Shown here in pieces: positions 2,932 to 26,746 of a stretch of DNA of 36,588 bases. The notes under the pieces are model-generated. The model was not told where the DNA came from. It saw only the letters and a list, made by a program, of their open reading frames with translations, and made no database searches. How positions within the stretch are numbered: the stretch's first letter is position 1; each line of letters starts with the position of its first letter. A program made the translations under genes and the position numbers. Source of the DNA: a virus. The stretch is taken from IMG/VR virus record IMGVR_UViG_3300030101_002124, positions 1 through 36,588 of that record; one strand, 5' to 3'.

Positions 2932-3113
2932 GGTTAGCCGTGTATACTTGGTTTTAAATTTTAGATTGTTTATAAAAATTCAATCTAACTTTTCATTCAT
3001 AAATTAGTACACCGCTAACCGAGGCATCGGCACTATGAGTACAGGCTCCATATTATTTGACTCATAGATTTGCAATAGGTCGACCTAATCGTGATGTCAG
3101 TCCAAATGACATC
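2932..3113 (+). ncRNA. Folded leader RNA upstream of the early operon
   Basis: No convincing gene lies between 2690 and 3243, but the stretch is rich in inverted repeats. GGTTAGC-c-GTGTA at 2932-2944 pairs with TACAC-c-GCTAACC at 3008-3020 (12 pairs round one C/C mismatch). It encloses TTAGATTG/CAATCTAA with a 12-base loop. Then follow CCGA-ggca-TCGG (3019-3030), CTATGAGT/ACTCATAG (3033-3067), the palindrome TAGGTCGACCTA (3076-3087) and GATGTCA-gtccaaa-TGACATC (3093-3113). TTAGATTG occurs again near 3129, so CAATCTAA has two possible partners. A structured 5' leader or small RNA is inferred. Confidence 0.45.
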
Positions 3114-3158
3114 ATCTAACAGAGACACTTAGATTGAATTGCAATTTTAAAATCTCTT

Positions 3159-3204
3159 AAAGTATTTTTGAATGCTCGTTGCATTGAGCATTCATGAATA
3201 CTTT
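3159..3204 (+). promoter_or_regulatory. Hairpin element, copy 1 (8 bp / 3x3 loop / 8 bp)
   Basis: Lower stem AAAGTATT/AATACTTT, internal loop TTT/ATG, upper stem GAATGCTC/GAGCATTC, loop of eight bases, then a short T-run. It lies 38 bases before the first gene of the operon. Two more hairpins with the same plan follow at 3942 and 5329. The T-run could make it a terminator or attenuator, but the repeated plan suggests a processing or protein-binding site. Confidence 0.65.
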
Positions 3205-3242
3205 TTGTATTCAGTATTAGACATTTAACAAAGGAGAAACAA

Positions 3243-3494
3243 ATGACTAAACTAACACAATCACAAAAAAGAAAAGTAAAACACATTAATAAAATATTTA
3301 AGGCTATAACATCAATCGCAGAATATGATGTTGACTATGCTGAGAATATGAGAGTCGAACAAATTAATAAATATTTACTAGCAGTGTCTGAAGGCACACT
3401 AGAAATGGATGCAAGATTTATTGACATTCATGTTTCAAGAATAATAGAAGCAATTAAAAAAAGAGATGCAAAGCAAGGAGTATCAAATGACTAA
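3243..3494 (+). CDS. Hypothetical early protein, 83 residues
   Basis: Charged helical protein, unknown function. The N-terminus is basic (SQKRKVKHINKIFK) and the rest has amphipathic helices, with a second lysine/arginine patch near the end. A strong AAAGGAG ribosome site precedes the ATG by 6 bases. It is the first gene after the folded leader and hairpin copy 1, and its stop overlaps the next start by 8 bases. Confidence 0.8.
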   Translation: MTKLTQSQKRKVKHINKIFKAITSIAEYDVDYAENMRVEQINKYLLAVSEGTLEMDARFIDIHVSRIIEAIKKRDAKQGVSND

Positions 3495-4131: not shown

Positions 4132-5106
4132 ATGACTAACATTATAAAACTACATGACGAACAAACTACTAATCCATTAGCATTAGATGACAAATATAAA
4201 TTTGATGTTGGATTAAAACCTATCTTTTACTACCAAAAACAAATTGATGGTGAACAAAAAGACGGTGTTGTTTTTCAAGATGCTGACGGATACACACTTG
4301 ACGGTGTATATAAAGAAATTCCCGACCATTATCAAGTTTGGGACACTACTAATCAGAGACCTATACCAAAAGGTGTTGTAGGTTCTAAGTATCATCCTAC
4401 CGCTATTTACGAATTAATAGATAATTTTAACGAGGGATTGGTGAAGGCTAACTTAGATACAGGATGTCTTGTAAAAGACGCAATGTATGAGGGTGGTGCA
4501 AAGTTTGTAAGAACTATATCTTATCCAAACATCACCATTGAACCAAAGACTAGAAAGGTTGGAGACATAATCAGATTTGAGATTGTCTTTAGAACATCGC
4601 TAGATGGTTCATGGGTTCACTCACTACAGATTTTACCAATTAGATTACTATGTCTTAATGGTATGGTCGGTGTTGACTCAAACTACAAACTTATTTTTAA
4701 CTTTAAGCACACCACAGGATTTAATCCTAGTGTCATTAGAGATAAGGTGATGATTGGTCAAGAGTCATTCCAAGAGATGCAGACATGGTTTGAGTCTCTA
4801 TCTAATGCTGAGGTCACTACTGATGATGTGAAGGCATTACTCAAGCATACTCTATTCAAGAAACAGGCACAGAAGGATGCTGAATTAAAAGAAAATAAAA
4901 CTTTTAATTGGATGATGGAACAGTTCTTAAAAGAGACTAAGGACTTAGGCATGACTATGTGGGCAGTCTACAATATGCTCACACACTATGCTACACACAC
5001 GCCATTGGCTAGAAGCAACACTCCACTACATAGTAGAGTCGTGACTGACCAACAACAAATAATGATGGTCATGCGTTCACCACAATGGCACAGATTGGTG
5101 GCATAA
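4132..5106 (+). CDS. DUF932 phage/plasmid-like protein
   Basis: A 324-residue protein of the DUF932 (phage/plasmid-like) family. Recognisable segments are YQVWDTTNQRPIPKGVVGSK (near 68-87), a central beta-rich domain with FEIVFRTSLDGSW, and the block LPIRLLCLNGMVG (near 169-181), followed by helices. Members occur on plasmids and phages beside recombination or anti-restriction genes; the biochemical role is not established. The start has a very strong GGAGGGG site. The next gene begins at the base after its stop. Confidence 0.85.
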   Translation: MTNIIKLHDEQTTNPLALDDKYKFDVGLKPIFYYQKQIDGEQKDGVVFQDADGYTLDGVYKEIPDHYQVWDTTNQRPIPKGVVGSKYHPTAIYELIDNFNEGLVKANLDTGCLVKDAMYEGGAKFVRTISYPNITIEPKTRKVGDIIRFEIVFRTSLDGSWVHSLQILPIRLLCLNGMVGVDSNYKLIFNFKHTTGFNPSVIRDKVMIGQESFQEMQTWFESLSNAEVTTDDVKALLKHTLFKKQAQKDAELKENKTFNWMMEQFLKETKDLGMTMWAVYNMLTHYATHTPLARSNTPLHSRVVTDQQQIMMVMRSPQWHRLVA

Positions 5107-7762: not shown

Positions 7763-7810
7763 TCCTGCACTGATTAGTGCATTAGTTCTATTCTACTAAT
7801 TAGTGTGGGA
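7763..7810. terminator. Long imperfect hairpin between convergent genes
   Basis: TCCTGCACT pairs with AGTGTGGGA (two wobbles) and, after a one-base mismatch, ATTAGT with ACTAAT: 15 pairs round a 16-base loop. Within it, TGCACT-gatt-AGTGCA is an alternative smaller stem. It sits between the plus-strand block and the minus-strand gene ending at 7838; probably a two-way stop or transcript end. Confidence 0.4.
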
Positions 7811-7837: not shown

Positions 7838-8098
7838 TTATTTGTATAGTTCACTAATATGACTACTACTTTTTTTATATTTTCTGCTATCGTTATATGA
7901 TTTATAGGTTCTACTGACACTGTTATTTATATATTTAGCAAACTTTCCCATATCTACATTAGAATATTTTTCTACAAATTTTTCTATAAATCTATAAGAA
8001 ACACAACAATTACCACTATAGTTTTCAATATGTTCAGATTGTATCTCTGCAATTATGTCTGCTAAAATAAATACTTGTTTTCTAGTTAAGTTTTTCAT
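7838..8098 (-). CDS. Hypothetical protein, 86 residues, possibly leaderless
   Basis: Unknown function; Lys/Ser/Tyr-rich with helices (VFILADIIAEIQSEHIENY; FIEKFVEKYS) and a basic C-terminus. No ribosome site is seen before the ATG at 8098, but a promoter-like pair of boxes (TTGAAT, TGACGATAT) ends only a few bases upstream, so the transcript could start at or near the ATG. The same boxes precede the RNA gene at 8283 on the other strand. The reading frame looks protein-like but is less certain than its neighbours. Confidence 0.55.
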   Translation of the reverse strand: MKNLTRKQVFILADIIAEIQSEHIENYSGNCCVSYRFIEKFVEKYSNVDMGKFAKYINNSVSRTYKSYNDSRKYKKSSSHISELYK

Positions 8099-8105
8099 AC
8101 TAATG

Positions 8106-8132
8106 ATATCGTCAAAAGCAAAAAATATTCAA
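8106..8132 (-). promoter_or_regulatory. Candidate promoter, minus strand, shared motif
   Basis: On the minus strand TTGAAT (8132-8127), 12 bases, then TGACGATAT (8114-8106). The ATG at 8098 follows 7 bases later. The identical two boxes with the same 12-base spacing lie at 8248-8273 on the plus strand. Read as sigma-70, TTGAAT is the -35 and GATATC the -10 with a 16-base spacer. Confidence 0.5.
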
Positions 8133-8145
8133 GTTTTTTTTGATA

Positions 8146-8195
8146 ATTAGTTGAAAAAAAAATAACAGGACTGATACAAATATTAGTTGAAAAAA
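8146..8195 (+). repeat. A-tract direct repeat between divergent promoters
   Basis: ATTAGTTGAAAAAAA occurs at 8146 and again at 8182, 36 bases apart. The whole stretch 8115-8250 is extremely A/T-rich with A-tracts, suggesting bent DNA or a binding site between the two shared-motif promoters. Confidence 0.4.
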
Positions 8196-8247
8196 ATAAA
8201 AAACTAACAATAAAGATTATAGAAGCAAAAAAAATTAAACTTTTTTT

Positions 8248-8281
8248 TTGAATTTTTTTGACTTCTGACGATATATATAAT
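8248..8281 (+). promoter_or_regulatory. Candidate promoter of the structured RNA
   Basis: TTGAAT (8248-8253), 12 bases, TGACGATAT (8265-8273), followed by TATAAT at 8276-8281. The first two boxes match the minus-strand copy at 8106-8132 in sequence and spacing. With GATATA as -10 the transcript would begin near 8283, just before the first hairpin of the RNA. TATAAT with the nearer TTGACT (8258) has only a 12-base spacer and is less likely. Confidence 0.55.
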
Positions 8282-8537
8282 GAACCATAGAAATATGGTA
8301 GAACCTAAGACTAAACGATTTGCAAGTTGTTTAGCGACCTTCTGACTGAATAATGTCTTTAAGTCAGAGGCATAAGGTGTAAGGCTCAAGGAGTATGGAC
8401 AAATGTCTGAGGTCTTGAGAGATAAGCACGAGTAGGATGATGAAATGTTCATCTGACCTACCGAAAGTTGTGGGTGAAAAAACTAACCCCACGAAGGTCT
8501 TTAGGTTCTACCACTTTTCATAAAGGGAGGACAAATT

Positions 8538-8567
8538 ATGCTAATAATTGTCTTTGACGACTGGTAG
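8538..8567 (+). CDS. Nine-codon mini-ORF at the 3' end of the structured RNA
   Basis: GGGAGG at 8525-8530 lies 7 bases before an ATG that opens MLIIVFDDW and stops at TAG inside the terminator stem. The start codon is in a small hairpin (ACAAATTAT/ATAATTGT, loop GCTA). The ribosome site is as good as those of real genes nearby. It may be a tiny peptide, a ribosome-binding decoy, or chance. Confidence 0.3.
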   Translation: MLIIVFDDW

Positions 8568-8593
8568 CCTTCGGGCTACCTACCTTTTTTTTT
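8563..8593 (+). terminator. Rho-independent terminator with UUCG loop
   Basis: GGTAGCC-TTCG-GGCTACC, seven perfect pairs with the very stable UUCG tetraloop, then TACC and nine T. It ends the structured RNA and overlaps the last codons of the minus-strand gene ending at 8576. Confidence 0.85.
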
Positions 8594-9097
8594 ATCATTA
8601 AAAAAGCTAGATAATTTTTCAAAACCAAAACGAACCATTTTTTTGTGGCTATCGTCTTCAGATAATACTTTGTTATGTAATAAGTAGGACGGATACCATT
8701 GGAACAAAACAATATCTCTTAAACATGATGAACACTTTAAAGATACATTTTCTTTTAAATGTTTGTTTATATCTTTGTATAAATTCCAAGTGTCAATACT
8801 TTTCTTGCCAATCCGATTTATTAATCCACGACCTTTTATTGGTGTCAGTAATTTTCCAGTATTTGACTCTGGATAAACCTTTCCATAAATTCTCATGAAA
8901 GTCATCCACCAAGTCATCCCTGCTCTGTGGTGGTCTTCGTGTATCATCTGTCTCTCTAAAAGTATATCGAGTGGGATGGTACTCATCATTGGATTACCAC
9001 CATCTACTAATTCTAATCTTTTTAATTGTTGTTCTGGTGTGCCTTTGTCTAGCACTATAGGATATTGTCTTGGTCTACCTCTACCTTTTTTAATCAT
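8576..9097 (-). CDS. AT-hook-bearing protein, 173 residues, possible replication partner
   Basis: The N-terminus KKGRGRPRQYP (residues 3-13) carries the RGRPR core of an AT-hook, which binds the minor groove of AT-rich DNA. The rest is helical with a conserved-looking segment HEDHHRAGMTWWMTFMRIYG (near 53-72) and one CSSC pair (122-125). No enzyme fold recognised. It overlaps the DUF1376-type gene by 8 bases, so the two probably act together, perhaps in replication start. The 3' end shares bases with the terminator of the opposite RNA. Confidence 0.65.
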   Translation of the reverse strand: MIKKGRGRPRQYPIVLDKGTPEQQLKRLELVDGGNPMMSTIPLDILLERQMIHEDHHRAGMTWWMTFMRIYGKVYPESNTGKLLTPIKGRGLINRIGKKSIDTWNLYKDINKHLKENVSLKCSSCLRDIVLFQWYPSYLLHNKVLSEDDSHKKMVRFGFEKLSSFFNDKKKGR

Positions 9098-19689: not shown

Positions 19690-19937
19690 TATTTTATCCC
19701 TAACGCTGCTTTTACTCCTAATAATAAAAGTGTTAGTGCACCAGTTACAATAAAACCTATTATTATAAAACGTACTCTGACACTAATTTTTTCGTGTAGT
19801 TGTCTTTGTTCTCTGAGATACATGAAATCTTTTTGTGCTTCGTATATCTCTTCAGAATTTAAACCCATCTTAGCTAGGGTTTGCTCCACAGTTTTTTCTA
19901 CTATTTCTACAACTTCTTTTTGTTTTATTTCCACCAT
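19689..19937 (-). CDS. Membrane-anchored helical protein, 82 residues
   Basis: A charged helical N-terminus (VEIVEKTVEQTLAKMGLNSE), a segment EAQKDFMYLREQRQLHEKIS and a C-terminal membrane helix (FIIIGFIVTGALTLLLLGV). It resembles a small membrane family of phages (DUF6127-like by memory). ATG at 19937 was preferred to a TTG at 19976, giving a 13-base overlap with the giant gene. Possibly part of lysis or of superinfection control. Confidence 0.65.
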   Translation of the reverse strand: MVEIKQKEVVEIVEKTVEQTLAKMGLNSEEIYEAQKDFMYLREQRQLHEKISVRVRFIIIGFIVTGALTLLLLGVKAALGIK

Positions 19938-22900
19938 ATTGGTCTTCTTAATTTTTGCCCTGTTGTTTTTTCCCAAGATAAAACAGCCTCAGTTAAATTT
20001 TGTATCATGTCATTTTTGACTATACTTAGCTGTCTTGTTCTATCTAACTTTTCTTTTTCTGTAAGATTTTTATCTGCTTGTATCCTTCTTATCTCTTGGT
20101 TTATTTGTGAAATTTTTGTGTTTACTTTGTTATATGCACCACGCCATTGTAAAAGATTTTTATTTTTTTCTGCTAACTCTAGTGCTTTGTTGTACTCACC
20201 CCGCTTTTGATACAATCTCATAAGATTGTTTACCTCTTCCATTTTTCTACGCATATCATAAAATTGTGTTTTATACTTAGATTGAAGAGACGGCAGCCCT
20301 TTAAAGAAACCCATAGCCAAAGGACTGTCAAAACCTGTGGTGAAAAACTCTGCAAATTTTCTAGGGTAATCTACAATACTAACAGCTGACACTACAGCAG
20401 AACCTACCCAACCAAAATATCCTTGCACCAAATGTTCTATTTGAACTGGAGATAATTGTACTTTTTCAAAAGGTATTAATTCTAATATTTTAGATGCACC
20501 CACATACGATGAACTCGTGTATGCGTATTTTCTCTCAGAAGCTGGTAATCTTTTCATGCCTAAAGACTCAATAGGTCTACCAGTAAAAGAATCTTTATTA
20601 GAATAAACCTCTAGTGCTGGTGTAATAAGTTGTGGTCTAATATCTACGGCAAAAGTTTCTGTTATTACATGAAGTATTCTCTCTGCTAAAAGTTGACCAT
20701 GAACATCATCATCAACCATTTGCTCCACCATTCTTTCAAAAATTACACCCACAGCACCAACTTCAAATGGTCTTGGTATTCTAAATACTCCAGCGTCATT
20801 TGGCAATTTAAACCAATGATATGTGTCCCTATCCCACTGTTCTCTTTCTTTAAAGTCTTCATCATCTTTGTATGCAAGATACAACCCTATAGAAGCCAAT
20901 GAGTATGTTCCAAGAACAGTTAACAACTGTGCTCTTTGTTCTTTAGTCATAGCTCTGCCAAGTTTATCTAGACCTTGAATACGAGCATTTAAAAATGGTA
21001 TCGACTGTGTCAAGAATCTAACAAATGGATTAGCACCATGCCTACTAAAGTTTAATAAATCTCTAGCTTGATAAGCAGCCTCAAAATGACTAACGCCTTT
21101 TGCTCTTAGTTGCTTATATAACGCTGCACGGTTAACATTTTCAAAGAAAGAACCTGTTTCTTCCCACCATTTTAAACTGTTTCTTAATTTTGAATTTAAT
21201 ACTCGTCTGGCACCTGCTGACCAACCGTCACGCTCCATCACAGTATTTACATCAATGGCTCTATCTAACAACATTTTTGTAGCGTTAGGGTCATCACCAT
21301 AGATGTGTCCAAAGTGTATGCTACCACCACCAAATGCCATCCTAGCTCTTAGCTCTGATGCACCAAGTTGCTTGTTTTTCTTTAATCCTTGTATACCCTC
21401 TAACACGTTTGCCATTGGATTGTATTTAAGTTTACCAACAGCTACAGAGTGTATTGAGTCACGAAGCAAGTTTCTAATTCTAAATGCTGGAGAAAATGTG
21501 ACACCATAAGTGAGATACCTTTTAAAGTTTCTCATAATATTCATCGCAGGGTTCTGCCAACCATTCCAATTAAGTGCTGTAAGAGACTCTAGGACAAGTT
21601 TATTTTCTACTTCGTAGTGTTCCATCTTGCCTTTGTCTCTTGCAAAGACTGATGTTTTTGTTTTGTTAGGAACCCTTCTTGCCACTCCCATTTCAGCAGC
21701 TTTTCTAAGAGTCTTTAATCCAGCAGCATTTTTTAATGATGCCTCTGTCAAAAAAGAATAGTTTCTAATTATGTTTTGTAGCAGGTCGTTGACTGGTAAA
21801 TCTGCACCTCTAAATCTTGGATAATCTGGTTGATTTACAATATCAGCAGCAGCTCTTGGACCGCTGTTGCTATCTCTGTCCTCTAGTAATCTGTAAAAAG
21901 GTATATAAAAATTATATCCATTATCCTCTGTCCATACTTTTGCAGACGCAGGGTCCAGATATCCAGACTTCACACCAATATCTAAAAACGCTTTATTAAA
22001 CTCTTGCAGGTCTTTTAGCGACTCGTTAAATTGTTTTTCTTTACCTTTTTGTAATTCATTTATGGCAGTGTTAATATCTTTAATATTACCAAGACCACTT
22101 TCAAAACCTTTATTTACTAAATTTCTAGCTCTATTAGCAGCAACCCATGCTAAAAAGTCAGGTAAATCCTGACCAAGTTTTTCAAATCTTGTAAATAGTC
22201 CAGTGCCAATTGTTTTATCTTTTAAATCTATGGCTCCCATATTGTCCATAAATGGGACACCATACAGCAATGCTGCCTCTGTTGCACCACTAGAGCCGTA
22301 AGTCATTGTTAAAGACTTGTATTCTTCTTCTCCGACAAACTTTTTTACTGAAATGTATTGGTCAGACAGTCCTTGTTGAAACTTTACACCCCAGTTATCT
22401 GTAAAATCTTTCCAGTGTGCAACAACAGTCTTTCTTGATTGCTTAGGATTAATTCTATCTAGAACTCTTTGTGTGCCATCACTAAACTTTCTGGTGGATG
22501 CAGAAAATTCTAAATTAAATTCTCTAAGTTTTTCTTTTGATAGCCTGTCTACCTCTATTTTAGATGCTTGTATTATAGGTGCTGATGGTGTGCCACCAAC
22601 AATTTCTGCATTTCCAATCTTTTCGTTTATTCTATCTATTAATTTTTCTACACCTTGTTTGGTATTAAGACCTTTGTAGGCATCTTTTCTTGGGCTTGTG
22701 GGTAAATTAATAATTGCAATACCATTATTCTTTAATGAGTTTGCAATTTTAGTTAGCGTATCATCTAAAATTATGTCAGAGTTTTGTACATTTAAAACAT
22801 TAGAAGCGTACACTACATCATATTTTTGTTTTAGTGCATTTGCGTCATGTATTTCTGGGTTAACATTATCGCCAAACTCATATGCCGTAACTCTAAACCC

Positions 22901-25900
22901 TTTTTTTCTTAATAGTTTAGTATGCTCTGCACTTTTACCTGCACCAAAATCAAGTATCTTTGATTTCTTACTTACGTTATCTTGAATATACTTTGGGACT
23001 ACTGCCTGTGGTCCGACAGAACCTTTGGCTCTAGAAGTTAAATTAGCTACTTTAATATCTTCATTAGATATAGATAACTCTGGTGTGAGTTCGTCTAGGT
23101 TTTGGGTTTCTGTTGCTTTGTCTTTTGTGAGGGTTTCTTTTGCTGCCTCTTTTTTCTGTCCAATTCTGTTCTCAACTTCAATGCTTGGCTTACGATTTTC
23201 AAGCTCGACTGTTCCATAGTTTTCTCCTTTGTCGTAGTTATTTATATACTTTTTAGAACCAGAGGACAAATATAAAGCTGGCACATTTTTTATTCCTAAA
23301 TCTCCAAACAATTCATGCTCATAAAACCATAAAACAGCTTGTGCATCTTTAGCAGAAAGGTCATTTCTTTTACCTAATTCTCTAAAAAATTTATCGCCTG
23401 TTTCTCTATGAATTGGTAAAAAGGCTGCTTTTAAACCATCTTGTGCAGATTTAGTATTGTCTACCACTTGTCCAAATTGTCTGTAAAAACTTCTAGCTGC
23501 CCATAAGTCTTTAGTTACTGCATCACCTTCCTTGTCTGCTACCCCAGATATGTTTAAATAATATGAACCAATTTTGTTTCCAAATAAGTAAGAACCGAGA
23601 ACCTCATTTCTTTGATTTCTAGGGCGTACTGCTCCAGCTATCTTTGAGTCTGCAGAGTAGTTTAATTTTTTACCTGTTTTGTCAGTAAATTGAGACCCAT
23701 ATTTAGCAGCTCCAGATTGTTGTAAGACTTTGTCTAAATCTCTCACGTCATGTGTGCTATTTAAAAAATCTACGGTCCCTTCTTTACCTTTTGTATCTAG
23801 TAAATATTGCAGTAAAGACAACTGTTGAGTTATTGTTGTTCTTCCAAAATTTAATTCATTACCAGGTTGTTTTATGGCTAAAGCACCAAATTTATCATAA
23901 TAAGAATAAACTCTTGCTGCTTTAACAACATTATCTGTAGGCGTGGCTTGTGGTGATGTTATACCAACTATTATTGTAAATAAATCTTTGTCATCTTGTG
24001 TTTTTAAGGATGGTATCTTTTGTTGAAGGTTTTTAAACATTTCAACAACATCGGTGTCGTACCATCCTACACCAGTATCTTGTTTGTTAAGTTGATATTT
24101 TATTTCTTTGTCGGCTGCATCTAATGCACGATTGTATGCACTTTTATCCAGCGGGTCACTTTTTTTAACTTTATCATCAAAAAATTTACCAAGTGCTTTT
24201 ATGCTTTTAAATTTTTGTGGTGGTTTTTCTCTAAATTTAACAGTTGATAATGCAAATTCTGCACCTTCTGCTGGTGCTCTTTTATAGACTTTAGCTATTT
24301 GTGTTTCTAGAAATTTTAGTTCTGCTCTACCCTCTGCATCTTTCTTGAGTTCTGGGACAGCACTTCTTCTTGACGTAACACTACCTATTTTTACTGTCTC
24401 ATTTGTGCCTTCAATTCTAAATTCTATAAACTTATCTTCGTCTATTAATTCTTTTTCTTTAGTGCCAATATCGACAATGGCATCTACAGCTGCACCTTGT
24501 TCTGGTCTTACCAACTGTCTAAATCTAGCTTTAATTCTAGGTTTTGTGATATCTGGATTATTATAAATATCCTCAAATATTTTTCTGCCTAGTCTAGCAT
24601 CTAAGAATGGTAATATAGTTCCTACAGTTCTGTCGCCATATTTTAAGTCAGTAAGAGAAAACTCAAATTTTGTAGGAACCTCACCTTTGGCTGCTGCTTT
24701 TTCTGCTTGTGCCAGAGACTTGGTTCTGAGTGCGTCTACGTCTGGTTGTGGCTTGGCTCTTTTGCCAATGTCACCAAGTCTAGCTTTGTCAAAAATATCT
24801 TTGACATCATTAATCTTGTTTTTTCTAAATATGTTTCCTGCTCTTTTAATAAAATCAAACAGCTTTCTAAATGCTCTGATTACAGGATTAGGTGCGGATA
24901 ATAATTTGTTATTGTTTCTAAGTGTAGCGTAAGCACCAAAGGCATAAGCCTGCATCTCTCTGTTGCTTATGTTTCTGTCTGCGTGTCTCTCACGCAATGT
25001 GTTCATGACATCGTTGCCTAATGCTTTCTGCACATTAGGTGTAATACTGTCTATTGTGCCACCAGGTAAGAATGTATCTAGTGCAGTCTGTTCTTGCTCT
25101 GTAAAGAGGTTCGGGCTAACTCTGTCAGTAACTCTTTGAAGAGCATGAAAGTTTTCATGTGCTACTGTTTCTTTAACTTTGCCTAAATCTGTTAGTGAGA
25201 TATAAGCTAAGTCACTAGTTCTATCGTACCAACCGTCAGCAACAGAACCTGCTGTGCCACCAGAGTTCATGACATTTGTCAAATCACCCTGCGGTAACGC
25301 TAAATCTTTTCTGTAATAAACTTGTTTTGTGCCAGGTGATATTTTGGCACCTTGACTTTCTACCTCATCGATAATACTTCCTAAAGTAGGGTCCTGAGTT
25401 TTTATCTCATCCGCTGTAAAAAATGTTTGTTCTGGTAATTTGTTTTTTTGGTCTTGTATCTCTTGCTGCTTTGCTGTGGCTTCTGCTTGAGTATTAAATA
25501 CACCTTGATTGTCAGTTTTAATTACATTGTTATTTGCGTCTAGCTCTTGACTTTTTACAACAAATTTATCACCCTCTTGCTGAACAGCAAAATTAGCAGG
25601 CTTTGCCTGTTCTTGAACTGCCTCTTCTTTGGCTCTCTCTTTTTGTTGTTGAGGTTGTATTATACCAGCCTCTACTTTAGGAGCCTCTACGGGTTTAGCT
25701 ACTGGTGTCTCTGCTGGTGTTTCAACTGGTGCAGTCTGCGGTGTTCTCGTTACTTCACCAGCTAGAGTTGCGGCACCACCAAAGGCACCACCGACAAATC
25801 CACCAGCCATTGCGGCTTCTTTAAATTCTGCTATAGCCTCTGGTGTATCTAGAGGTAAACCAGCTTGATATCTTTCTAGTGCTTGCTGACCAACCTCTGT

Positions 25901-26746
25901 TGCAGCCTCTGCGGTTACACCTAAAGCTGTCCCTTTTGCTACTCTGCCTGTTGTTGCTCTGTTTAAAACATTAGAAAACTGTGTTCTACTAAGTGGTCCA
26001 AACAATCTGCCAACCACTGGATATAATGCAGCCTCTAAAGCTGCCTGTGGCAACGCTGTAGTTGCCGCCTTAGCTTCATTAATAGAATCTAAATTTCCTA
26101 AATTAACTTGTTCTTGTTGTCTGCTAATATTAAATTCAAATAAACGTGGGAAAGAAGCTGCTGCTGCACCAACACCAGCACCAACCAACGCACCAATAGG
26201 ACCAGCAAATCTACCAATCTTTGCACCAGCAACGGCACCAGCGACACCCTCAACAAGAAAAGGACTTGACTGACCTATAGCAGATAATCCAGCTTTTACA
26301 AAAGTATCTACCCCTGCATCTGGTCCCTCTGTAGCCTGTTGGAAACTTACATAACCCTCTTGATTTAGGATATTTCTGTCTTGTTCTGCGGCTTGATTGT
26401 ATAACTCTTGTGCTCTCTCATCGTTGCCCATTAAACCAGCAATACCACCTCTTAGTCTGGTAATAGCTGGACCCCATGACCTCTGCCATGAAGATTTTGT
26501 GGGACCAACAAAAGATTGTGTAAATCCTATATCGCTGGGTGTTTGTGTAGGAGTAAAAGCTCTCTTACCACCAGCAACAGGAGATGTTACAGGAGAAACC
26601 ACGGGTTGCTCTGCCAGTAAAGACTGCCTAAAAGTTTCTGGGTCTAAATCACCTTGATACTCTAATAAAAGTCTCTCTATTAGCTCATCATCTGGTAATA
26701 AAGCTAGATTAGGGTTCTCTAATTTAAGCTGTTCTAAAACAGTCAT
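19925..26746 (-). CDS. Giant polyvalent virion protein, 2273 residues (zincin, methyltransferase, LPD-type domains)
   Basis: Largest gene of the window. Visible parts in order: a Gly/Ala-rich hydrophobic stretch (about 150-210) that may cross membranes; low-complexity Gln/Glu linkers; a metallopeptidase-like domain with HENFH (HExxH, 530-534) in KETVAHENFHALQ; a region with GWYDTD (about 893) and GITSPQATPTDN (about 930); a methyltransferase-like fold with ILDFGAGKSAEH (about 1264); a helical part with WTEDNGYNFYIPFYRLLED (about 1600-1620) and TFSPAFRIRNLLRDS (about 1746) like large polyvalent protein-associated domains; and a coiled-coil end. Such proteins are thought to be packed in the virion and injected. 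Activities are not proven; catalytic residues of the methyltransferase cannot be confirmed. Confidence 0.75.
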   Translation of the reverse strand: MTVLEQLKLENPNLALLPDDELIERLLLEYQGDLDPETFRQSLLAEQPVVSPVTSPVAGGKRAFTPTQTPSDIGFTQSFVGPTKSSWQRSWGPAITRLRGGIAGLMGNDERAQELYNQAAEQDRNILNQEGYVSFQQATEGPDAGVDTFVKAGLSAIGQSSPFLVEGVAGAVAGAKIGRFAGPIGALVGAGVGAAAASFPRLFEFNISRQQEQVNLGNLDSINEAKAATTALPQAALEAALYPVVGRLFGPLSRTQFSNVLNRATTGRVAKGTALGVTAEAATEVGQQALERYQAGLPLDTPEAIAEFKEAAMAGGFVGGAFGGAATLAGEVTRTPQTAPVETPAETPVAKPVEAPKVEAGIIQPQQQKERAKEEAVQEQAKPANFAVQQEGDKFVVKSQELDANNNVIKTDNQGVFNTQAEATAKQQEIQDQKNKLPEQTFFTADEIKTQDPTLGSIIDEVESQGAKISPGTKQVYYRKDLALPQGDLTNVMNSGGTAGSVADGWYDRTSDLAYISLTDLGKVKETVAHENFHALQRVTDRVSPNLFTEQEQTALDTFLPGGTIDSITPNVQKALGNDVMNTLRERHADRNISNREMQAYAFGAYATLRNNNKLLSAPNPVIRAFRKLFDFIKRAGNIFRKNKINDVKDIFDKARLGDIGKRAKPQPDVDALRTKSLAQAEKAAAKGEVPTKFEFSLTDLKYGDRTVGTILPFLDARLGRKIFEDIYNNPDITKPRIKARFRQLVRPEQGAAVDAIVDIGTKEKELIDEDKFIEFRIEGTNETVKIGSVTSRRSAVPELKKDAEGRAELKFLETQIAKVYKRAPAEGAEFALSTVKFREKPPQKFKSIKALGKFFDDKVKKSDPLDKSAYNRALDAADKEIKYQLNKQDTGVGWYDTDVVEMFKNLQQKIPSLKTQDDKDLFTIIVGITSPQATPTDNVVKAARVYSYYDKFGALAIKQPGNELNFGRTTITQQLSLLQYLLDTKGKEGTVDFLNSTHDVRDLDKVLQQSGAAKYGSQFTDKTGKKLNYSADSKIAGAVRPRNQRNEVLGSYLFGNKIGSYYLNISGVADKEGDAVTKDLWAARSFYRQFGQVVDNTKSAQDGLKAAFLPIHRETGDKFFRELGKRNDLSAKDAQAVLWFYEHELFGDLGIKNVPALYLSSGSKKYINNYDKGENYGTVELENRKPSIEVENRIGQKKEAAKETLTKDKATETQNLDELTPELSISNEDIKVANLTSRAKGSVGPQAVVPKYIQDNVSKKSKILDFGAGKSAEHTKLLRKKGFRVTAYEFGDNVNPEIHDANALKQKYDVVYASNVLNVQNSDIILDDTLTKIANSLKNNGIAIINLPTSPRKDAYKGLNTKQGVEKLIDRINEKIGNAEIVGGTPSAPIIQASKIEVDRLSKEKLREFNLEFSASTRKFSDGTQRVLDRINPKQSRKTVVAHWKDFTDNWGVKFQQGLSDQYISVKKFVGEEEYKSLTMTYGSSGATEAALLYGVPFMDNMGAIDLKDKTIGTGLFTRFEKLGQDLPDFLAWVAANRARNLVNKGFESGLGNIKDINTAINELQKGKEKQFNESLKDLQEFNKAFLDIGVKSGYLDPASAKVWTEDNGYNFYIPFYRLLEDRDSNSGPRAAADIVNQPDYPRFRGADLPVNDLLQNIIRNYSFLTEASLKNAAGLKTLRKAAEMGVARRVPNKTKTSVFARDKGKMEHYEVENKLVLESLTALNWNGWQNPAMNIMRNFKRYLTYGVTFSPAFRIRNLLRDSIHSVAVGKLKYNPMANVLEGIQGLKKNKQLGASELRARMAFGGGSIHFGHIYGDDPNATKMLLDRAIDVNTVMERDGWSAGARRVLNSKLRNSLKWWEETGSFFENVNRAALYKQLRAKGVSHFEAAYQARDLLNFSRHGANPFVRFLTQSIPFLNARIQGLDKLGRAMTKEQRAQLLTVLGTYSLASIGLYLAYKDDEDFKEREQWDRDTYHWFKLPNDAGVFRIPRPFEVGAVGVIFERMVEQMVDDDVHGQLLAERILHVITETFAVDIRPQLITPALEVYSNKDSFTGRPIESLGMKRLPASERKYAYTSSSYVGASKILELIPFEKVQLSPVQIEHLVQGYFGWVGSAVVSAVSIVDYPRKFAEFFTTGFDSPLAMGFFKGLPSLQSKYKTQFYDMRRKMEEVNNLMRLYQKRGEYNKALELAEKNKNLLQWRGAYNKVNTKISQINQEIRRIQADKNLTEKEKLDRTRQLSIVKNDMIQNLTEAVLSWEKTTGQKLRRPIWWK

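Follow-up and report, generated by a model that had tools for sequence, protein, structure and literature searches.

A divergent manA-type RNA with an additional closing helix precedes a conserved nine-codon reading frame in a marine phage

The window analysed here is the whole of the 36,588-base IMG/VR virus record IMGVR_UViG_3300030101_002124, and the feature under study occupies positions 8283–8593 on its plus strand. A preliminary description of this DNA had proposed that a structured RNA is transcribed here as a unit from its own promoter to its own terminator, which covariation among relatives supports, and that the stretch holds no plausible gene; in fact, it contains a conserved nine-codon open reading frame (ORF) with a strong Shine–Dalgarno (SD) site. 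From 5′ to 3′, the locus comprises the following elements.

8248–8277, plus strand: RNA promoter, TTGAAT (−35), an 18-nt spacer and TATATA (−10)
8290–8307, plus strand: 5′ strand of the closing helix P0 (partner 8502–8519)
8311–8334, plus strand: hairpin P1, with an invariant TTGCAA in its loop; 98% paired, two-sided changes at 5 of 8 pairs
8321–8502, plus strand: full-length match to RF01745 (manA), 34.1 bits, E = 3e-7, model positions 1–192
8335–8501, plus strand: manA-type multibranch core, from the divergent-clade model R1 and covariation
8385–8419, plus strand: helix P4 with an inner GGAC-AAAT-GTCT hairpin; 100% paired, a hallmark of the clade
8502–8519, plus strand: 3′ strand of P0, from covariation (partner 8290–8307)
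8525–8530, plus strand: SD site GGGAGG; GGGAGG, AGGAGG or a close variant in 22/22 ORF-bearing relatives
8526–8551, plus strand: start-codon hairpin; 97% of cells paired, two-sided changes at 2 of 6 pairs
8538–8567, plus strand: micro-ORF of nine codons, MLIIVFDDW-stop, from synonymous-substitution and permutation tests
8563–8593, plus strand: intrinsic terminator, GGTAGCC-TTCG-GGCTACC followed by TACC and T9

A pattern based on the window and on L122/L131, an 88%-syntenic relative, recovered further members of the clade. Class A, which includes the window, has P0 outside P1 together with the GGAC-AAAT-GTCT element. Class B (L125, L128, L134, L138, L139 and L141–L146) has this element in common with class A, and in several members single-sequence folds give a P0 of different sequence.

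The promoter-like boxes of the preliminary description were found again at 8248–8277, in a form (TTGAATTTTTN7–9CGATAT) that is kept in 19/19 distinct relatives; at the 16 loci where copies were counted, each locus has one. A second, imperfect copy runs in the opposite direction at 8132–8106 (minus strand), ahead of an 86-amino-acid gene (7838–8098); it has three mismatches, with 0.01 matches expected by chance, and the two copies form a divergent promoter pair. Class A loci also carry a conserved box, GTTGAAAAAAA, roughly 60–110 nt ahead of the promoter, often followed by AAACTAACAATAAA (around 8149–8220 in the window). At the other end of the unit, the UUCG terminator that had been claimed is present: its stem (8563–8580), with T9 behind it, outranks every other terminator-like site nearby, and the stem is kept in all 19 relatives. 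The TAG stop codon of the micro-ORF (8565–8567) falls in the 5′ arm of this stem, and the stop lies inside the stem in every case.

The plus strand from 8280 to 8595 folds with −104.2 kcal/mol, compared with −73 ± 5.1 for dinucleotide shuffles (z −6.15, 0/100). The minus strand of the segment also folds strongly (z −5.82), and the strand therefore cannot be told from folding energy alone; the promoter, the terminator and the family match set it as plus. We aligned 19 distinct class A sequences on a fold of 76 pairs, using covariance models and folds that contain no pseudoknots. In this alignment, 97.6% of cells pair; the figure is 89.6% with shuffled partners and falls below 50% after a one-column slide. 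Two-sided changes occur at 28 of the 76 pairs, where shuffled partners give 16.9 on average and slid partners no more than 9, and these counts are inflated by the kinship of the sequences, which the slide control retains; the count of further pair types in the 19 sequences is no higher than in shuffles.

The RNA consists of P0 and five further helices, and the internal stems seen earlier are present. P0 has 16–17 pairs, 99.4% of cells paired and two-sided changes at 8 of 17 pairs. It corresponds to a 15-pair closing helix already proposed, which holds as a helix with compensatory changes but moves by a few bases, from 8297–8311/8497–8512 to 8290–8307/8502–8519. A GAAA-capped 5′ hairpin is possible, but the GAAAUA starting at 8290 pairs better as the base of P0. 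Within P4, the inner GGAC/GTCT becomes GGCC/GGCT or GACC/GGTT in relatives. The core contains TGACTGAATAA at 8343–8353, TAAGGTG and a GTGGGT...ACCCCAC hairpin at 8470–8492. No reading frame crosses 8290–8519 in all relatives, and an antisense ORF (8204–8452) was rejected as an artefact of RNA conservation, being closed in most of them.

A scan of the whole window at Rfam gathering scores matched no family. The family had seemed unrecognisable because this standard scan misses the RNA, whose 34.1 bits fall below the RF01745 gathering threshold of 55.2 bits; the match nevertheless spans the full model, and the manA landmarks TGACTGAATAA and TAAGGTG are exact in the window. On the divergent relatives, RF01745 gives 20–45 bits (E 7e-5 to 1e-12, the lowest E in class B) where it matches, and neither class A nor class B reaches the cut-off, whereas the two canonical manA loci tested score 191–195 bits. 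In the reverse direction, a model built only from the clade finds the intermediates L014 (E = 2e-7), L038 and L051 (6e-4) at the right places, and gives weak matches (near 0.1), also at the right places, on the canonical loci L003 and L005. Homology is therefore supported both ways, in the reverse direction mainly through the intermediates. Jointly, these points argue with high confidence that the window RNA is a divergent manA RNA, a previously unrecognised offshoot of the family.

The manA motif was described in 2010 from marine sequences, gammaproteobacteria and cyanophages as a certain RNA and a cis-regulator, possibly a riboswitch (PMC2864571). Its published model (RF01745) includes a tentative pseudoknot, and the papers found on manA report no tested function. 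The pattern of TGACTGAATAA with TAAGGTG occurs at no fewer than 120 loci in IMG/VR (≥120); most of those inspected are canonical manA RNAs just behind a sigma-70-like promoter, and many precede T4-like-looking genes. Among the matches listed, an ORF of at least 50 amino acids lies within 160 nt at 90/99 canonical loci, and a promoter lies just upstream at 80/99. Two side observations were made at such loci. A recurrent hairpin, GACCTAAGATGCAACT..AGTNGGGCAGATGGTC, lies directly 3′ of canonical manA in L013, L016, L017, L018, L027, L043 and L047, often followed by a T-run, and a gathering-score Rfam scan of L017 returned manA and no family for this hairpin. The 52-kb phage contig L014 encodes a tmRNA (RF00023, 110 bits) about 1 kb from its intermediate manA-like RNA (R1 E = 2e-7), the two elements lying at 2997–3287 and 4289–4417 on the minus strand; ARAGORN found no tmRNA in the window.

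The window RNA shares with canonical manA RNAs, besides the two sequence landmarks and the full-length covariance-model match, the GUGGGU/ACCCAC hairpin, the order of a hairpin followed by a multiloop-closing helix, a promoter immediately upstream and a marine phage setting. It differs in its score and in having P0 around P1 and the GGAC-AAAU-GUCU element in an internal stem; canonical manA has no space for P0, because no more than a few bases separate the promoter −10 box from P1. A manA RNA is expected in the 5′ UTR of a gene for metabolism or phage structure; no such location was found in the window, where the next genes are on the other strand and the RNA leads a nine-codon ORF running into a terminator. 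The phages differ as well, the window clade occurring in relatives of pelagiphages, not in T4-like cyanophages.

The micro-ORF reads ATG CTA ATA ATT GTC TTT GAC GAC TGG TAG. Across 22 loci, 14 of which were found with a pattern that included the ORF end and hence make a biased set, its length is 27, 30 or 33 nt only, and the peptide is M-hydrophobic-(I/V)-(I/V)-L-D-(P/D/Y)-W-stop or close to it (for example, M-hydrophobic-IVLDPW-stop). When 13 distinct ORFs of the same length are compared, synonymous changes account for 55% of the codon pairs that differ, as opposed to 14 ± 8% with permuted columns (0/3000), and the entropies at codon positions 1, 2 and 3 are 0.64, 0.11 and 0.98. A search with the core and no ORF term recovered nine class A loci, the window included, of which eight have the micro-ORF (the exception is L129); its six ORFs of equal length give 47% synonymous differences (0/3000 permutations). 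By these substitution patterns, the micro-ORF evolves as a protein. The start-codon hairpin also covaries, so both coding and structure constrain the start of the ORF. The earlier view that the RNA is not a leader holds for genes of ordinary length, but the RNA directly leads the micro-ORF. As judged by comparison, this is a manA clade whose RNA has an extra closing helix and leads a micro-ORF, and known members do not end in a nine-codon gene. That an ORF below ten codons can be functional, with a terminator-like hairpin behind it, is known from mccA, the seven-codon gene of microcin C; mccA differs in having no manA-type RNA and an unrelated peptide, and no modification enzymes were seen in the window.

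The surroundings of the unit vary. Each of the 16 class A records searched has one copy of the RNA core. The genes found downstream of the unit include at least seven that are unrelated, and the window, L131 and L132 have no same-strand gene behind the terminator. In 19 of the 22 ORF loci, a same-strand gene follows 36–90 nt or little more downstream (36–43 nt in about half of the relatives); many of these terminators have only a T4 tract, and for several of the downstream genes a separate TATAAT-like box follows the terminator. The RNA, ORF and terminator of the window are kept in L131 (72% identity), the differences including compensatory and synonymous changes. L277 (2353–2718) is a mosaic of an L130/L132-type RNA core with an L136-type linker, ORF and terminator, which suggests recombination at the end of P0. 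With the core single-copy, the promoter present once per locus, the neighbours varied and the L277 mosaic, comparison indicates that promoter, RNA, ORF and terminator behave as a self-contained cassette in unrelated phages. An empty-site comparison with record G003 was set aside, as only three of its proteins are common with the window.

Part of the clade has the RNA and no ORF. In class B (L128 type), the RNA lies in the 3′ UTR of another gene and there is no micro-ORF; in L128, L138, L139, L142 and L144, it starts at the final codons of the gene before it and finishes with P0 and then T7. The next gene in these five appears to have its own promoter, and P0 plus the U-run may itself act as a terminator. 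L129 has the RNA core with a different 3′ end and no micro-ORF.

The 497-amino-acid protein of the window is 56% identical to a protein of the Pelagibacter phage HTVC115P, and the nearest relatives of the helicase in the L130/L136/L137 group include those of HTVC027P and HTVC023P; on these resemblances, the hosts of the window phage and of its cassette-bearing relatives are likely to be SAR11, a highly abundant ocean bacterium. Searches of these three cultured pelagiphages did not find the RNA, and no riboswitch was reported in a previous pelagimyophage survey (PMC7029224). In 41 records, chosen mainly for a related 497-amino-acid protein, the RNA core occurs only in G001 (the L131 contig); G008 and G014 matched a short pattern and lack the rest of the motif. 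BLASTN searches of INPHARED with the window, class A and class B RNAs gave nothing or chance matches of 28–29 nt. No copy of the cassette was found in bacterial genomes, and 32 matches from a clade-pattern scan of genome contigs, all without GGAC-AAAT-GTCT, were judged to be chance. Elsewhere in the window, a 2273-amino-acid protein (19925–26746, minus strand) matches phrog_18222 (unknown function) in its C-terminal part and has a weak methyltransferase-like stretch at residues 1261–1355, and a hairpin, TGCACTGATTAGTGCA, with nearby CTAATTAGTG repeats marks a convergent-gene junction at 7766–7800 and is kept in L122/L131.

Comparison among relatives establishes the promoter, the RNA fold and the manA homology, and shows that the ORF is coding and that the unit has spread among phages in the manner of a cassette; the functional reading that we favour, and consider somewhat probable as a whole, is that of a structured leader joined to a micro-gene. 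The dedicated promoter would make a transcript of roughly 300 nt, a complete small phage gene, which would fold as a divergent manA-type RNA closed by P0, continue into the SD site and the nine-codon ORF, and stop at the terminator that holds the stop codon of the ORF. The RNA domain would act in cis as the leader of the micro-ORF, much as manA RNAs do for ordinary ORFs at most cyanophage loci. The product would be a hydrophobic peptide made early (consensus M-x-I/V-I-V-L-D-P/D/Y-W), and the domain would set its expression or stability. Ribosomes at the stop codon would open the terminator, so that translation of the micro-ORF could tune read-through where a gene lies just downstream. Against this reading, L129 and class B have the RNA and no ORF, which indicates that the RNA can do without the peptide and weakens a pure peptide gene, and the closely spaced downstream gene in about half of the relatives makes the unit look like an operon leader. 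A broader version, in which a mobile phage gene gives from one autonomous transcript both a large structured RNA and a peptide of 8–10 residues that act jointly on the host early in infection, is a tentative possibility.

Leader-peptide attenuators such as ermCL and TnaC likewise have a short ORF with an SD site that overlaps an intrinsic terminator, and the unit could be a translation-coupled attenuator of an early operon, with the micro-ORF as leader peptide, the manA domain as sensor, a ribosome at the TAG in the stem preventing termination, and the window as an orphan copy that has lost its downstream gene. The stop codon inside the stem at every locus, the start codon in a hairpin and the downstream genes at 19 of 22 loci, many behind a T4 tract only, all fit; unlike those attenuators, however, the window has a large conserved RNA domain before the ORF and no same-strand gene after the terminator. 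The three genomes with nothing to control weaken pure attenuation, the RNA, ORF and terminator being conserved between two of them (the window and L131); moreover, the downstream genes are unrelated, several with a promoter box of their own, and the peptide is more conserved than ribosome loading alone demands. We regard attenuation as unlikely. It is improbable, too, that the RNA is itself the product, a free-standing molecule acting in trans on host or phage machinery, with the ORF recruiting ribosomes for protection or release: the unit has its own promoter and terminator, its location relative to genes varies, and class B and L129 have the core without the ORF, some in 3′ UTRs ending in P0 and a U-run, but the amino-acid-level constraint on the micro-ORF in cassette loci is unexplained by a role of the RNA alone and weakens a pure RNA product. 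If P0 worked as a switch, its 3′ strand would leave the 5′ strand and pair with the SD site, and duplexes of about −7 to −10 kcal/mol are predicted for this pairing in all members; pairing with the own SD site (−7.75) is no better than with those of other phages (−7.82), so that sequestration is not lineage-specific, and P0 is about twice as stable, which makes the switch highly improbable. As for a new class of large RNA akin to GOLLD, ROOL and HEARO, which the preliminary description had invoked, the resemblance lies in size (several hundred nucleotides), multibranch form and the phage or marine setting; a search of 4227 Rfam families with E up to 5 gave no covariance-model match to any of them and manA as the only significant hit, and the manA homology leaves this reading scarcely credible.

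As the leader of a micro-gene, the reading favoured here, the window RNA would be a minimal form of manA, the sole apparent cis target in this phage being a nine-codon gene. A candidate riboswitch since 2010, manA has been known from cyanophages and marine DNA (PMC2864571); the clade extends it to phages related to those of SAR11, and makes a small construct available for testing manA function. The micro-ORF itself represents a very short conserved protein-coding gene of a kind that is hidden by ORF length cut-offs, and the self-contained unit argues that some manA-type RNAs may be independent transcripts, not leaders of metabolic genes.
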